Under the pieces are notes generated by a model. That model saw only the letters and a program-made list of their open reading frames with translations, made no database searches and was not told the origin of the DNA. The translations under genes and the position numbers were made by a program. A stretch of DNA of 64,000 nt from Actinomadura sp. J1-007 (GTDB taxonomy: Bacteria > Actinomycetota > Actinomycetes > Streptosporangiales > Streptosporangiaceae). The DNA lies in NCBI RefSeq assembly GCF_009793335.1, contig NZ_WING01000001.1, forward strand, positions 4,588,001 through 4,652,000, given 5' to 3'. Shown here piece after piece: positions 49,582 to 57,400 of the stretch; the first letter of the stretch is position 1, and each line of letters begins with the position of its first letter.

Positions 49582-50757
49582 CTACGCGCGTCGGGGGAGG
49601 GCGTCGAGGAGCCGTTCCAGCTCCTCTTCGGTGTTGTAGTAGTGCGTGGACGCCCGGACCGCCGCCGGAACGGCGTGCGGGTCGTACTGCGAATTGGCGC
49701 CCGTCGTCACGCTGACGTTGACGCCGCGCTCGCGGAGGGCCGCCTTCACGGCGGCGGACTCGTACCCCTCGACGGTGAACGTGACGATCGCCGCCCGGCG
49801 TTCGCCCCGGTCGAGGACCGTGACGCCGGGACGGGCGGCCAGTTCGGCGCGCAGCCGCGCGGCGAGGCCGGTCGCGCGCTCCTCGATCGCGTCCATGCCG
49901 AGCGCGGCGGCGTAGTCGGCGGCGACGCCGAGACCGATCTGGCCCGCCACGTACCGCTCCCACGTCTCGAAGCGCCGCGCGTCGTCCCTGACCGTGTACG
50001 TGTCGGGCGCCGTCCACTCCGCCGAGTGCAGATCGAGGAACGGCGGCTCCAGCGTCCGCAGGATCGAGCGGCGGACGTACAGGAACCCGGTCCCGCGCGG
50101 ACCGCGCAGGAACTTGCGGCCCGTCGCCGACAGCATGTCGCAGCCGATCTCCGCCACGTCCACGGGGAGGTGCCCGACGGACTGGCAGGCGTCCAGCAGG
50201 TAGAGCGTCCCGTGCTCCCGGCACAGCCGTCCCACCTCGGCGGCCGGGTTGACGAGGCCGTTGTGCGTCGGGACGTGGTTGAGCGAGACGAGCCGCACGT
50301 CGCCCTCGGCCAGCTCGGCCGCCAGCGCGTCCAGCGACACCTGCCCGTGCCCGTCGTCCGGCACCACCGTCACCCGGACGCCCCGGGCCGCGGCGACCTG
50401 CCGGTAGGCGATCGCGTTGCTGGCGTACTCGCTGGTGGTGGTCAGGACGCGGTCGCCCTCCGCGAACGGGATCGCGTAGAACGCCATGTCCCACGCACGG
50501 GTGGCGTTCTCCACGTAGGCGATCTCGTCGGGGTCCGCGCCGATCAGCCCGGCGACCGCGGCGTAGAACCGCTCGATCGCCGCCTCGCCGCGTTCGGCCG
50601 CCTCGTAGCCGCCGGTCTCCGCCTCCAGCGTGAAGTGCTCCGCGACCGCGTCGATCACGGGCCGCGGCGGCAGCGCGGCGCCCGCGTTGTTGAGGTGCGC
50701 CACGTTCGCGCAGCCCGGCGTCTCGGCCCGCAGCCTCTCGATGTCCACCCTGGTCAC
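49582..50757 (-). CDS. Class V aminotransferase (cysteine desulfurase/selenocysteine lyase-like)
   Basis: The protein has 391 residues and the class V fold: [11 protein letters not shown] at the N-terminus, [15 protein letters not shown], and the PLP Lys in [16 protein letters not shown]. This is the EgtE/desulfurase-like branch with a late Thr/Tyr motif [16 protein letters not shown] 50757 is preferred (GAAGGGC just upstream); ATG 50790 would add 11 residues but has no ribosome-binding site. No sulfur-acceptor genes are adjacent. It is transcribed away from the SoxR-type promoter. Confidence 0.85.
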
Positions 50758-50857
50758 GCGCCCTTCGTCCGGTACGGTCCGGCCGCCCATTCAAGCCGGG
50801 GCGGCGGCGCGGGCGCAAAGTGTCGTACCCCGGCGCGAAGCTGGTGGAGCCGGGTAC

Positions 50858-50888
50858 TTGACCTCAAGGATCGTTGAGGTTCGAGGAT
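50858..50888 (+). promoter_or_regulatory. SoxR-type promoter of the ABC exporter
   Basis: TTGACC (-35, 50858-50863) and GAGGAT (-10, 50883-50888) are separated by 19 bp, the over-long spacing of MerR/SoxR-activated promoters. The spacer holds CCTCAA-GGATCG-TTGAGG (50862-50879), an 18-bp palindrome that matches the SoxR box (CCTCAA-N6-TTGAGG) in both arms. The -10 is 45 bp upstream of the exporter start. No soxR gene is in the window. Confidence 0.85.
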
Positions 50889-50933: not shown

Positions 50934-52885
50934 ATGGACATGGAAGTGACCGCGTGGATGTCGCTGCACCACGCGATGAACGCCGAGGACGACCGCAGGC
51001 CGTTCTCCAAGGTGACCCTGCGGCGGATCGCCCGGTTCGCCCGGCCGCACCGGCGGCGCCTCGCCGCGTTCCTGGGCTTCAGCGTGGTGATGGCGGTCGT
51101 CGCGGTCGCCACGCCCGTGCTGGCCGGGCGGGTGGTCGACGCGATCGTCGACGGCAAGGCCACCGCGACCGTGGTGGGGCTGGCCGTGGTGATCGCCGGG
51201 CTGGCGCTCGCCGAGGGCGGCCTCGGCCTCGCCAACCGGTGGCTGTCGGCCCGCATCGGCGAGGGCCTGATCCTCGACCTGCGCACCGCCGTGTTCGACC
51301 ACGTGCAGCGCATGCCCGTGGCGTTCTTCACCCGCACCCGCACCGGCGCGCTGGTCAGCCGCCTCAACAACGACGTGATCGGCGCGCAGCGGGCGTTCAG
51401 CGACACCCTGTCCGGCGTGGTCAGCAACCTGGTCACGCTGCTGCTGACGCTGGCCGTGATGATCGGGATCTCCTGGCAGATCACCCTGCTCGCGCTGGTG
51501 CTGCTGCCGGTGTTCGTGCTGCCCGCCCGCCGGATGGGCACGCGCCTCGCCCGGCTCCAGCGCGAGGCCGCCGCGCACGACGCCGCGATGAGCACGCAGA
51601 TGACCGAGCGGTTCTCCGCGCCCGGCGCGACGCTGGTCAAGCTGTTCGGGCGGCCCGACCGCGAGTCCGCCGAGTTCGCCGCGCGCGCCCGGCGCGTCCG
51701 CGACATCGGCGTCCGCGCCGCGATGGTGCAGCACGTGTTCATCACCGCCCTCACGGTCGTGTCGGCGCTCGCCCTCGCCCTGGTCTACGGGCTCGGCGGG
51801 TTCCTCTCCCTGCGCGGCCAACTCGACGCCGGGGCCGTGGTGTCCCTCGCCCTCCTGCTGACCCGCCTGTACGCGCCGCTCACGGCCCTCGCCAGCGCCC
51901 GCGTCGAGGTGATGAGCGCGCTGGTCAGCTTCGAGCGCGTCTTCGAGGTGCTCGACCTGACGCCGCTGGTCGCCGAGCGTCCCGCGCCGCGCACCGTTCC
52001 CGACGGGCCGGTGGCGGTCGAGTTCGAGCACGTCCGCTTCGCGTACCCGTCCGCCGACAAGGTGTCCCTCGCCTCCCTCGAAGAGGTCGCGGGCCTCGAC
52101 ACCCGCGGCGGCGAGGAGGTGCTGCACGACGTGTCGTTCCGCGCCGAGCCCGGCCAGATGGTCGCGCTCGTCGGCTCGTCCGGGGCGGGCAAGTCCACCA
52201 TCGCGCAACTGCTCCCGCGGCTGTACGACACCGACGAGGGCACCGTCCGGCTCGGCGGCGAGGACGTCCGCGACCTGTCGTTCGCCTCGATCCGCGAGAC
52301 GCTCGGCATGGTCACCCAGGACGGCCACCTGTTCCACGAGTCGATCCGCGCCAACCTGCTGCTCGCCCGCCCCGAGGCCACCGAGGACGAGCTGTGGGAC
52401 GTCCTGCGCCGGGCCCGCCTCGACGCGCTGATCCGGAGCCTGCCGGACGGGCTCGACACGATCGTCGGCGAGCGCGGCTACCGGCTGTCGGGCGGCGAGC
52501 GCCAGCGCCTGACCATCGCCCGGCTCCTGCTCGCCCGCCCCGCGTGGTGATCCTCGACGAGGCCACCGCGCACCTCGACTCCACGTCCGAGGCCGCCGTG
52601 CAGGAGGCCCTCTCCGAGGCCCTCGACGGCCGCACCGCCGTGGTGATCGCGCACCGGCTGTCCACCGTCCGCGCCGCCGACGTCATCCTCGTCGTCGAGG
52701 CGGGCCGCATCGTCGAGCGCGGCACCCACGACGAACTGCTCGCCGCCGGCGGCCGCTACGCCGAACTCCACCGCACCCAGTTCGACCAGCACCCCGCCGA
52801 CCCGTCCGACCCGTCCCACGCCCCGACGCCCCGGACGCCCCGGACGCCCCGGCAAAGGACGCCCCCCCTGGAACCGGTCGCCTGA
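50934..52885 (+). CDS. ABC transporter, fused permease and ATPase (exporter), one apparent frameshift before Walker B
   Basis: The six-helix permease (about residues 35-300) and NBD are in one chain of about 650 residues. Walker A (GSSGAGKS, about nt 52174-52197) and the signature LSGGERQR are in the first frame, which stops at 52548. One base is missing in the G/C run at about 52535-52548; the next frame continues with [12 protein letters not shown] (Walker B), the H-loop AHRLSTV and a Pro/Thr-rich tail to 52885. Uncorrected, the ATPase would be dead. With the SoxR box upstream, it resembles SoxR-controlled exporters of redox-active compounds in Streptomyces. Start ATG 50934; ATG 50940 possible. 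Confidence 0.88.
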
Positions 52886-52991
52886 TCCACCCCCGCCAAG
52901 GTGCCCCGCCCCCCACCGGGCCGGGGCACCTGGCCATCCCGCAACCTCCAGCCCAACGCGAGACACGGGCCCCCGATGCCCGACCCCCACA

Positions 52992-53098
52992 TGCGCGACG
53001 CCCGGTACCCGATGCGCGATGCGACGCCCGGTACCCGGTGCCCGGTGCGCGATGCGATGCCCGGTGCCCGGTGCGCGATGCGATGCCCGGTGCCTCGG
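52992..53098. repeat. Tandem GC-rich repeats, about 26-bp unit
   Basis: Two copies of a 26-bp unit (gcgcgatgcgatgcccggtg and following, 53047-53072 and 53073-53098) and about one and a half diverged copies upstream share GATGC, CCCGGT and GCGCGATG blocks. They lie in the 265-bp gap between two convergent genes, so they may affect termination or simply be a variable-number repeat. The remainder of the gap holds nothing recognisable. Confidence 0.75.
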
Positions 53099-53150: not shown

Positions 53151-53710
53151 TCAGGAGGGCTTGGGGGTGTAGGTGGCGATGATGACGCCGTTGGAGTGGA
53201 CGGCGGTGTCGGTCAGGTCGAACTTCGCGGCGAAGCCCTCCCTGGTCAGCAGCTCGGCGGGGTCGCCGGTGCCGACGACGACCGGGTGGATCCACAGGCG
53301 CAGCTCGTCCAGCAGGCCGTTGTCCATGAGCGTGCGGGAGACGGGCCGAAGCCGTACTGGAGGATGTCCTGGCCGTCCTGCTCCTTCAGCTTCGCGATCT
53401 CCGCGACGGCGTCGGCGCGCCGGATGATGACGGTGTTGTTCCACTCGCCCTTCTCCAGGGAGTCCGACACCACGTAGTGGGGCAGGTTGTTCATCCGGGC
53501 GCCGAAGTCGCCGGTCTGCTCCTCCATGGCCGGCCACGCCTGGGAGAAGCCGTCGTAGGTCGCGCGGCCCATCAGGAGGGCGTCCGACGCGAAGAGCTGC
53601 TCGCGGGCGAAGCCCTGGGCCTCCTCGCCGAAGTAGTCCATGGTCCAGTTCTGCGGGTTCTCGATGACGCCGTCGAGCGAGATGTAGGTCGAGTTGACGA
53701 TCTTGCGCAT
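53151..53710 (-). CDS. RibD C-terminal-type dihydrofolate-reductase-fold protein, one apparent frameshift
   Basis: From ATG 53710 (GGAGG just upstream) the frame reads MRKIVNSTYISLDGVIENP, then LLMGRATYDGF and VVSDSLEKGEW, until about 53345-53355. One missing base there moves it to the frame with ...TLMDNGLLDELRLWIHPVVVGTG, ending at 53151. The corrected length of 186 residues matches the 'dihydrofolate reductase family' proteins (RibD C-terminal domain, YyaP/YwjB-like). These are NADPH-dependent reductases of unknown substrate. The next gene upstream encodes an FMN reductase and is separated by 14 bp, so the two are co-transcribed. Confidence 0.82.
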
Positions 53711-53724
53711 GGGGTTCCTCCGTG

Positions 53725-54300
53725 TCAGTCGGTGTACGGGTGGGCGGACCTGGCGTCGCGGAGGGCGCGGGCCCACCAGCAGAGCCGGTCCAGGGTCGTC
53801 GCGGCGTCGGCGTCGCAGGTCGCGCCGGGCTTCGGCCAGGAGCCGTCCGCCGCGAACAGCTCCCAGTAGCACGGCAGGCTGACGCCGTCCCGGATCGGGA
53901 CCGCGTGCAGCTCGCCGAACACCTCCCGGAGCTGCGCGGCGGCGTGCAGGCCGCCCGACTCCCGGCCGTACGTGACGAGCGCGACCGGCTTGGCCCGCCA
54001 CTCGTCGTAGTACCAGTCGAGCGCCGTCTTCAGCGGCGCCGGGAAGCCGCGGTTGTACTCGGGGGCGACCACCACGAACGCGTCCGCGGCGGCCAGCCGG
54101 GGCGCGAGCGCCCGGACCGGCTCGGGGAGCGGCTCGTCCTGGTCGGTGAGCACGTCCGGCAGCCCGGCCTCGGCCAGGTCGAGGAGGTCGACGTCCAGTC
54201 CGGGACGCCTGCGGGCGTGACCGGCGAACCAGCCCGCCACGGTCGGCCCGAACCGGCCCGAGCGGGTGCTGCCGATGATGATCACGACGCGCAGTCCCAT
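53725..54300 (-). CDS. NADPH-dependent FMN reductase-like flavoprotein
   Basis: The protein has 191 residues. The flavodoxin-like nucleotide motif is GSTRSGRFGP at 10-19, and VVVAPEYNRGFPAPLKTALDW is the family's second signature. It reduces flavins or quinones in the cytoplasm. It is divergent from the SARP/AfsR-like regulator across 137 bp and co-transcribed with the dihydrofolate-reductase-like gene, suggesting a redox or detoxification unit. Confidence 0.9.
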   Translation of the reverse strand: MGLRVVIIIGSTRSGRFGPTVAGWFAGHARRRPGLDVDLLDLAEAGLPDVLTDQDEPLPEPVRALAPRLAAADAFVVVAPEYNRGFPAPLKTALDWYYDEWRAKPVALVTYGRESGGLHAAAQLREVFGELHAVPIRDGVSLPCYWELFAADGSWPKPGATCDADAATTLDRLCWWARALRDARSAHPYTD

Positions 54301-54437
54301 CCGTCCCGCCTCCTCGTTCCCTCGGCTCCGATGGCCCCTACTGTGCGGGAGGCGGTTTACGGGATTCTTACGGTTGCTTTCTGGGGATTTGCGGACCCTG
54401 CTGACCTGGGGGTACGCGGGCGGCTAGGGTGCGGGCC
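54301..54437. promoter_or_regulatory. Divergent promoter region with TTACGG direct repeats
   Basis: TTACGG occurs at 54357-54362 and 54368-54373, exactly 11 bp apart, the spacing of SARP sites. A third weak copy follows. TAGGGT (54425-54430) directly before the ATG (54438) is a good -10, implying a leaderless mRNA for the regulator. Autoregulation by the SARP protein, or control of the divergent flavoprotein, is possible (inference). Confidence 0.5.
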
Positions 54438-57400
54438 ATGCGTTTCGGGGTGCTCGGCCCGCTCGCCGTCCGGACGGGCGGCGGCGCGGCCGTGCCGGTG
54501 CCCGGCCTGAAGGTCCGCGCCGTGCTCGCGGTCCTGCTGCTGAACGAGGGCCGTCCGGTCCCCGCCGACCGGCTGATCGACGACCTGTGGGGCGGGTCCG
54601 CCGCGCCGCCCGGCAACCCGGCGGGCGCCCTGTCGGCGAAGGTGTCGCAGCTCCGCCGCGTCCTGGAGGACGCCGAGCCGGGGCCCGCGCGCTCGTCGTC
54701 TCGCGTCCCGCCGGGTACGCACTGGAGTGCGGCGAGGTGGACGCCCTCCGGTTCCAGCGCCTGGTCGCGCGCGCCCGCGCCGAGGGGGAGCCCGGCCTGC
54801 TCGCGGACGCGCTGGCCCTGTGGCGGGGGCCCGCGTACGCCGACTTCGCGGACGAGCCGTTCGCGCGCGCGGAGATCGCCCGGCTGGAGGAGCTGCGGCT
54901 GACCGCCCTGGAGGACCACGCCGAGCACCGCCTCGCGCTCGGCGACCACGCGGCGCTGGCGGGCGAGCTGGCCGACCTGCTGACCGTCCACCCCCTGCGC
55001 GAACGGCTCCGCGCCGCCCACCTGCTCGCCCTCTACCGGACGGGCCGCCAGAGCGAGGCCCTCGACGCGTACGAGGCGCACCGCGCCCGCCTCGCGGACG
55101 AGCTCGGCCTGGACCCCGGCACCGAGCTGACGGCGCTCCATCAGGCGATCCTGCGCCAGGACCCGTCGCTGAACGCCCCGCCCCGCAGGGCCGAGGCCGT
55201 CACGCGGCCCGGGACCCGCGCGGCCCGCGCGGCGGTCCGGGGCAACCTGCGGGAGCCGGCGTCCGGGCTGATCGGCCGGGACGAGGCGGTCGCCGAGATC
55301 GGGGACCGGCTCGCCGAGGAACGGCTCGTCACGCTCACCGGCCCCGGCGGCGTCGGCAAGACCCGGCTCGCGCTCGCGACCGCCGCCGGGCTCGCGGGCG
55401 ACGCGTTCCCCGACGGGGTGTGGCTGGTGGAGCTGGCCGCGTTCGAACGGTCGGCCACGGCCGTGCCCGAGGCCGTCGCGCACGTGCTCGACCTGCGCGA
55501 CGACCCCGGCGACGACGGCTCCGGCGGGCCGTCCGGACCGGCGGGACGGCTCGCGGACGCGCTGGCCGGACGGCGGCTGCTGCTCGTCCTCGACAACTGC
55601 GAGCACCTGATCGACGAGGCCGCGGACCTCGCCGGGCGGCTGCTCGGCGCCGCGCCCGGCCTGCGGATCCTCGCGACCAGCCGGGAGCCGCTCGCGCTGC
55701 CCGGCGAGGTGGTGTGGAGCGTCCCGCCGCTCGACGTGCCCGCACCCGGCGCCGCCGACCCGGGCGTGCTCGAACGGTCGAGCGCCGTGCGGCTGTTCGT
55801 GGCGCGGGCGTCCGCCGCGGCCCGGGACTTCCGGCTCGACGCCGGCACCGCGGAGGCCGTCGCGGTGCTGTGCCGCCGCCTGGACGGCATCCCGCTCGCC
55901 CTCGAACTCGCCGCCACGCGCGTGCGGGCGCTCGGCGCGCACGGCCTCGTGGACCGGCTGGACGACCGGTTCCGGCTGCTCGCGACCGGGCACCGGGGCG
56001 CGCCTCCGCGCCAGCGCACGCTCACCGCGATGATCGACTGGAGCTGGGAGCTGCTGTCCGATCCGGAACGGGCCGTGCTGCGGCGGCTGTCCGTCCACGC
56101 CGACGGCTGCACCCTCGACGCCGCCGAGGCCGTCTGCGCGGACCCGGACGGCGGCGACGGCGCGCTGGACGTGCTCGACCTGCTCGTACGGCTCGTGGAC
56201 CGTTCACTGGTCGTCATGGAGGACCGCGGCGGCGACGGCCCCCGCTACCGGCTGCTGGAGTCGGTCGCCGCGTACTGCGCCGACCGGCTGGACGAGGCGG
56301 GCGAGCGGGCGCGGGTCCGCGCGCGGCACCGCGACTACTACACCGGCCTCGCCGAACGCGCCGAGCCGTACCTCTACGGCCCCGGCCAGGCCCGCCGCCT
56401 CCGGCTCCTCGACGGCGAGGCCGCCAACCTCCGCGCCGCGCTGGACGGCGCGGTCGCGGACGGCGACCGGGACGGCGCGCTGCGGCTCGCGAACGCGCTG
56501 ACCTGGTACTGGTACCTGCGGGGCCGGCTGGCCGAGGCGGACCGTTCGCTCCGCGCCGCGCTCGCGCTCCCCGCCGGACCCGAGCCCGCCCCGGCGGCGC
56601 GGGTGGCGCGGGCGAAGGCGGCGGCGTGGCTGGCGGCCATCGGCGTGCTGCGCGGCGACGAGGCCGGATGGCCCGCCGCCCGCGACGAGGCCCTGCGCCT
56701 GTTCGCCGGGGAGGACGAGGGCGAACGGGCCCGCGCGCAGTGGCTGCTGGCGTGGGCGGGCAGCGAGAACGACCACGTCGCCGACGGCGGGGCACGCGTC
56801 GCCGAGGCGTTCGCGACGTTCGAGAGGCTCGGCGACCGGTGGGGGATGGCCGCCGCGCACGTTCTGATGGCCAAGCTGGCGCACGCGCGCGGGGAGACGG
56901 ACGCCCTCGAACGCGAGGGACGGCGCGCCGCGCGGCTGTTCGGGAGGTCGGCGACCGGTGGGGGCAGCTCCAGGCCGCCGAATGGCTCGGCGCGCACGCC
57001 GAGCTGACCGGCGACTACGAGCGCGCGGCCCGCCTCCAGCGCGACGGCCTGCACCTCGCCGAGGAACTGCACCTGTGGCCCAACCTCGCCATGCGCCTCG
57101 GCTGGCTCGCGTGGATCTCGCTCCAGCGCGGCCTGTACGCGGAGGCCCGCGAGTACGGCGAACGGGTCCTCGCGCTCGCCGCCGAACGGGGCCGCCAGCC
57201 CGCCGCGCTGATGGCCGAGATCGTCCTCGGCCTCACCGACCGCCGCACCGGCGACCTCGACGCGGCCGAGGCGCGCCTGCGCCCCATCCTGGTCAGCGTG
57301 GACGGCGACGCCACCCCGCCGCTGTTCCTGCCGCTCGTCCAGGTGGGCCTGGGCCACGTCGCCGAGCTGCGCGGGGACGCCCCGGGAGCCCTGCGGCTCC

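Follow-up and report, generated by a model that had tools for sequence, protein, structure and literature searches.

A SoxR-type promoter predicted to drive a probable EcaA-type ABC half-exporter in Actinomadura sp. J1-007

A promoter in the genome of Actinomadura sp. J1-007, at positions 50858-50888 of an analysed stretch of 64,000 nucleotides (the window, C1:4588001-4652000), can be assigned with high confidence as a SoxR-activated promoter that drives an EcaA-type (SCO7008-type) ABC half-exporter, for which we infer binding, induction and the export substrate here. Judging from the sequences compared, this export pump is very probably switched on by a SoxR whose gene lies in another part of the genome. 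The SoxR reading is supported by the anatomy of the promoter, the presence of a SoxR with its Cys cluster, the conservation of the operator, its co-occurrence with SoxR, and the redox enzymes found as co-targets.

SoxR belongs to the MerR family and works as a dimer, each subunit of which holds one [2Fe-2S] cluster; its switching by cluster oxidation and DNA distortion is established. At this locus, the host SoxR would be bound to a dyad inside a spacer that, at 19 bp, is overlong for RNA polymerase, and a redox-active compound, such as a quinone or a phenazine, would oxidise its cluster. The oxidised SoxR would then distort the DNA, bringing the -35 and -10 hexamers into alignment, so that the exporter is made and may pump out the redox compound or its product.

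Anatomy of the promoter and its operator

The -35 hexamer TTGACC (50858..50863, + strand) is separated from the -10 hexamer GAGGAT (50883..50888, +), which fits NANNNT, by a spacer of 19 bp (50864..50882, +). The usual spacer optimum for sigma-70 is 17 bp, and in the E. coli soxS promoter the dyad lies within a 19-bp spacer. The dyad CCTCAA-GGATCG-TTGAGG (CCTCAAGGATCGTTGAGG; 50862..50879, strandless), predicted from direct reading and conservation to be a SoxR-type operator, lies within the spacer and shares the last two bases of the -35 hexamer. CCTCAA-N6-TTGAGG is the dyad of SoxR-dependent promoters, and its arms are the SoxR core of E. coli soxS. This layout, with the dyad inside the long spacer, had been described in an earlier sequence-only reading, and direct reading bears it out to the base. 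The first ATG of the exporter (50934) lies 54 bp 3' of the dyad.

The exact core has a single match in the 64-kb window. When up to three mismatches are allowed, eight matches are found against 9.9 expected from shuffles, and since such matches are no commoner than in shuffled sequence, they are not counted as evidence. Activation of the divergent gene by the same geometry finds no support, as the opposite strand has CGAACC, and not TTGA, before the dyad.

The exporter gene and its neighbours

The exporter combines an ABC_membrane (PF00664) and an ABC_tran (PF00005) domain in one chain. Its first part (50934..52550, +), recognised by these two families and by its orthologues, harbors the membrane domain, Walker A and the signature, and runs for 538 amino acids to a premature stop, while the C-terminal part, from Walker B (VVILDEAT) onward, is read directly in another frame (52544..52885, +). 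The nucleotide-binding domain is therefore not complete in one frame, the break falling near 52,545, ahead of Walker B; the sequence-only reading had passed over it. If this break is real, the pump would be dead in this strain, and the promoter would stand intact in front of a pseudogene. Two comparisons point that way: at 109/109 other exporter loci one frame runs through both parts, making this copy the sole exception of 110, and its stop-to-stop frame measures 562 amino acids, where each of the 55 other genus orthologues sampled has at least 627. However, an adjoining RibD_C/DHFR-like gene (within 53151-54001) and a BTAD regulator gene (within 54429-57007) are likewise split between frames, with breaks near 53,345 and 54,700, and the estimated completeness of the assembly, 90.9%, is low for the genus, in which 58 of 59 other genomes reach 93-100% and one 88%. 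Neighbouring split genes and low completeness fit indel errors in the assembly better than the decay of one gene. The frame break is thus probably an assembly indel error, and a pseudogene is unlikely.

A GC-rich tandem repeat array, whose periods include 7, 26 and 33 bases, occupies 52972-53094, just 3' of the exporter. On the other side of the exporter, divergently oriented, lies a gene (49582..50790, -) assigned by family match to the PLP-dependent class-V aminotransferases or cysteine-desulfurase-like (EgtE-like) proteins. It stands beside the exporter at 29/30 genus loci, this one included, and at 2 of the best 80 named loci, both from close relatives.

SoxR of the host

The window had been said to lack soxR, and accordingly no match to PF13411 (MerR_1) is found within C1:4588001-4652000; the whole genome has 39. 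The soxR gene lies on the same contig, 2.16 Mb from the exporter (C1:6797589-6798008). Its product scores 229.1 bits against TIGR01950, for which the curated cut-off is 116.9, and it is the one protein above that cut-off among 23 matches to the model, the second best reaching 57.7 bits. It carries the [2Fe-2S] ligand motif C-x2-C-x-C-x5-C (CIGCGCLSINKC), so that the genome does hold the soxR gene with a Cys cluster that the sequence-only reading had proposed to look for. In a phmmer search against solved structures the best match is E. coli SoxR (2zhg, 3e-51), in which the segment RSGVAVSALHFYESKGLI is identical. The reading segment and the Cys cluster are thus common to the host protein and E. 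coli SoxR (2zhg, 2zhh); the difference from the E. coli SoxR/soxS system is that the host SoxR would control the exporter directly.

The host soxR is itself preceded by a core box with one mismatch, which ends 19 bp 5' of the ATG and has no TTGA ahead of it. Out of 18 soxR loci taken, ten, all from the genus, were judged in this respect, the other eight (L212-L219) falling outside the count; one of the ten (L252) had been chosen because of its box. An upstream core box with 0 or 1 mismatch is present at five of the ten (the host, L175, L176, L178 and L252), and no such box was found at the other five. By contrast, the S. coelicolor regulon study reports that soxR is not autoregulated in that species, and that a potential box accompanies about 13 percent of the soxR genes of other Streptomyces (PMC4146615).

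Other sites in the host genome

Across the 10.33-Mb genome the exact core occurs twice, each occurrence being scored on both strands because the core is palindromic, where about 0.12 would be expected from the base composition of the window; a reversed-pattern control for the exact core gave 0 matches genome-wide. The extended form TTGACCTCAA-N6-TTGAGGT, with 17 fixed bases, is also found at two places, about 2e-5 being expected. The second exact site (C3:61549) repeats the 19-bp spacer and the GAGGAT of the window site, and lies 5' of a zinc-binding, quinone-oxidoreductase-like gene with a TetR-family gene divergent from it. A quinone-oxidoreductase-like target beside a TetR-family gene is likewise seen in the Streptomyces SoxR regulon, where boxes are reported at SAV_4018 (quinone oxidoreductase) and SAV_4017 (TetR) (PMC4146615).

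With up to three mismatches to the extended box, the whole genome yields 23 rows (8 forward, 15 reverse), several of them being the two strands of one site, against 1 for the reversed-pattern control. Candidate targets were restricted to the six sites with 0 or 1 mismatch, which lie upstream of the exporter, two zinc-binding quinone-oxidoreductase-like genes, an NADPH-dependent FMN reductase gene, an ABM-like gene (23.5 bits; cut-off 23.1) and an MFS transporter gene that starts about 200 bp downstream of its box. A more specific name, PIG3-type quinone oxidoreductase, comes from a match below its cut-off (138.5 vs 296.8 bits). The genome-wide scan that had been suggested thus finds the exact box to be rare, with candidate sites 5' of redox genes and transporters. 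A paralogue of the exporter (C2:816919, 59%) has no site nearby at up to three mismatches to the extended pattern.

Within the window, 0.8 kb past the exporter, lies a further NADPH-dependent FMN reductase gene (53725-54300, -) of the same Pfam family as the box-bearing gene elsewhere in the genome, and no core box with up to three mismatches was found near it. MFS genes and some others in the genome stand behind boxes with CCTCGA arms, which possibly bind further MerR proteins, one of which could share the exporter site. A MerR-type dyad that differs in its arms (TTGACTTCAAGCATACTTGAAGC, C2:211126-211148) adjoins the start of a MerR-family gene, and is perhaps the autoregulated promoter of that non-SoxR gene.

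Conservation within the genus

Sixty genus genomes, drawn evenly and including that of the host, were compared. SoxR scores above the cut-off in 60/60, and an orthologue of the exporter (at least 85% identity) is present in 56/60. The exact extended box lies 39-78 bp 5' of the aligned start at 48/56 of these orthologues, and at the remaining eight a core box occupies this position, with no mismatch in three, one in three and two in two. The core box is therefore kept, with at most two mismatches, at 56/56 orthologues, which speaks for the interpretation of the site as SoxR-controlled. Of thirty exporter loci read over their whole length, 29 carry the exact core and one a core with a single mismatch, and both the TTGA ahead of the dyad and NANNNT at the 19-bp spacing are found in 30/30. 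The inner N6 of the box varies, whereas TTGA, the arms and NANNNT at 19 bp are constant, which is the mark of a protein-binding site. These counts rely on a search for the best core with no preset TTGACCT or TTGAGG; a position table covering 29 of the 30 loci (L158 is absent from it) had TTGACCT and TTGAGG fixed, so that constancy at those positions is there by construction.

Exact extended boxes are found at 113 sites in 57 genus genomes: 48 belong to the exporter, one to the host's own oxidoreductase gene, and 64 to other genes. The gene behind each of these 64 was picked automatically by codon composition among open frames starting within 90 bp, a procedure in which single picks are fallible (L221 is an example). 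The genes were grouped by clustering, with Pfam names checked on ten representatives and the FMN reductase and ABM names given by clustering with the scanned proteins of the host. On this basis, 20 resemble the host's own quinone-oxidoreductase-like genes, 11 are FMN reductases and 10 PNPOx-like; SnoaL/DUF4440-like and NAD-binding 6PGDH-like genes account for five each, NmrA-like genes for three, ABM-like and DUF6506 genes for two each, an MFS gene and a soxR gene (G015) for one each, and four are singles. The boxes thus precede redox enzymes of classes described for the S. coelicolor SoxR regulon (PMC4146615).

Other genera and co-occurrence of the box with SoxR

The named comparison set consists of the best 80 named exporter loci, that is, the closest relatives rather than a census, and it includes Streptomyces, Streptosporangium, Micromonospora, Rhodococcus, Nocardia and Kribbella. 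The closest loci among these 80 are those of Actinomadura montaniterrae (92%) and Spirillospora albida (88%), and both (L064, L065) are apparently from the genus genomes G044 and G042, with identical SoxR coordinates, so that there is a slight overlap between named set and genus sample. Within 350 bp upstream, a core box with no more than two mismatches lies at 73 of the best 80 (31 exact, 32 with one mismatch, 10 with two). TTGA precedes the dyad at 70 of these 73 and NANNNT follows at 19 bp at all 73. In control tiles taken downstream of the exporter at the same loci, a box is found in 4/461; this control is used instead of an earlier one (7/480) that included promoters of a few short loci.

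SoxR was sought in 50 of the 80 named genomes, including all seven without a box; the 30 others are all boxed. It is found above the cut-off in 45: 42 are boxed, two unboxed (L071 and L112), and one (L074), with 95 bp of upstream sequence only, was set aside from the box judgement. In both unboxed genomes the statement refers to the 350 bp upstream, and in L112 an exact box lies about 1.6 kb upstream of the exporter. SoxR stays below the cut-off in the other five, four of which have no box: Frankia sp. CIT1 (L085), Streptacidiphilus jeojiense (L090, where a match of 101.5 bits falls short of the cut-off), a Chloroflexia MAG (L124) and Pseudarthrobacter sp. NamB4 (L136). The fifth, Streptomyces sp. 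GQFP (L082), has an exact box 5' of the exporter, and a second search with the host's own SoxR protein found no SoxR in it either (best 33 bits); this strain may have lost soxR recently, a replicon may be missing, or a different regulator may be at work. Some of the SoxR-less genomes, one of them being a MAG, may be incomplete assemblies. Box and SoxR agree in 46/49 judged genomes, L071, L112 and L082 being the exceptions, and the association gives a Fisher p of 3e-4, uncorrected for kinship.

It could be argued that another MerR-family activator uses the box and that the presence of SoxR is incidental. The 39 MerR_1 matches of the host, the similarly shaped boxes with other arms in its genome, and Streptomyces sp. 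GQFP, which keeps an exact box without SoxR, are all in line with such an activator. However, the arms are those of the SoxR core of E. coli soxS. The absence of the box from four of the five SoxR-less named genomes likewise favours SoxR control. In addition, the co-targets (quinone-oxidoreductase-like genes, FMN reductases, ABM-like and NmrA-like genes and one soxR) resemble the S. coelicolor SoxR regulon (PMC4146615). Another MerR activator is thus rated as quite improbable, slightly below the pseudogene. A chance inverted repeat 5' of an unrelated gene is hardly credible: near matches with three mismatches are indeed as frequent as in shuffles, but the match is exact and rare in the whole genome, and the conservation of the box at all 56 genus orthologues in practice already refutes it.

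A possible source of redox-active compounds

The sequence-only reading had added that SoxR-type control suggests a host that makes or meets a redox-cycling compound. That the host makes one finds no support as a deduction from this control, as the box-exporter pair spans genera from Streptomyces to Rhodococcus and occurs, within the genus, in members both with and without an aromatic polyketide cyclase gene. The PF04673 cyclase is present in 36/60 genus genomes irrespective of the exporter, and all four genomes without an exporter orthologue (G003, G011, G017 and G027) have it, so that the presence of the exporter is not tied to this marker.

A candidate aromatic polyketide cluster of about 19 kb (C1:5117000-5136000) is nevertheless present in the host, 0.49 Mb from the window site, with genes for a ketosynthase, a polyketide cyclase, an anthrone-oxygenase-like protein, a flavin-dependent aromatic hydroxylase, an O-methyltransferase, an EryCIII-like glycosyltransferase and a DrrA-like ATPase. 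This cluster is a plausible source of a quinone, but none of the results links it to the promoter, and no extended-box row with up to three mismatches falls within C1:5105000-5136000. That so many genera carry the box argues for a response to redox-active compounds in general. S. coelicolor SoxR is reported to be activated by actinorhodin, phenazine methosulfate, benzoquinone and plumbagin, and not by paraquat (PMC5288332).

Relation to known systems and meaning

The ABC transporter that the sequence-only reading had mentioned from the S. coelicolor SoxR regulon is SCO7008. According to the regulon study, SoxR (SCO1697) binds and activates this gene together with a set of redox enzymes, its targets being SCO7008/ecaA, SCO1178, SCO1909, SCO2478, SCO4266 and SCO0320ext, which comprise the ABC transporter, oxidoreductases, a monooxygenase, an epimerase/dehydratase and a quinone oxidoreductase (PMC4146615). 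The text of that study gives the conservation of ecaA as 100 percent over 55 Streptomyces species, although no ecaA is entered for S. venezuelae in its Table 4 (PMC4146615).

The host exporter is very likely of the EcaA (SCO7008) type. Like EcaA it is an ABC transporter under a SoxR box, and unlike EcaA the host copy is frame-broken in the assembly. The orthologue in S. scabiei 87.22 (L135; 79%, one-mismatch box), at about 1.37 Mb, would, by the map position expected from its gene number, be SCAB_12171, the ecaA homologue of Table 4 in PMC4146615. Both regulons share a SoxR with C-x2-C-x-C-x5-C, and the combination of an ABC transporter with targets of the oxidoreductase, flavin reductase and monooxygenase type. 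They differ in that the host belongs to another genus, the target lists overlap partly, and the host exporter stands beside a divergent desulfurase-like gene. The locus is thus the known Streptomyces circuit in another genus, with the exporter as a new member; a limited literature search found no earlier description of a SoxR circuit for Actinomadura.

More tentatively, and with rather less than even confidence, exporter and SoxR may form an old core detoxification unit of Actinomycetota that is untied to one home-made pigment, in which the exporter is fixed and the redox enzymes under SoxR rotate by species. In the genus, the box may also serve the divergent desulfurase-like gene, and soxR may in some species be under its own weak box.

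A circuit worked out in Streptomyces would in this way be extended to another antibiotic-producing genus, the exporter being the member that varies least across the sampled genomes. The SoxR-less genomes that keep the exporter offer natural cases for the fate of the operator, and the promoter is a ready reporter for redox-active natural products of such strains.
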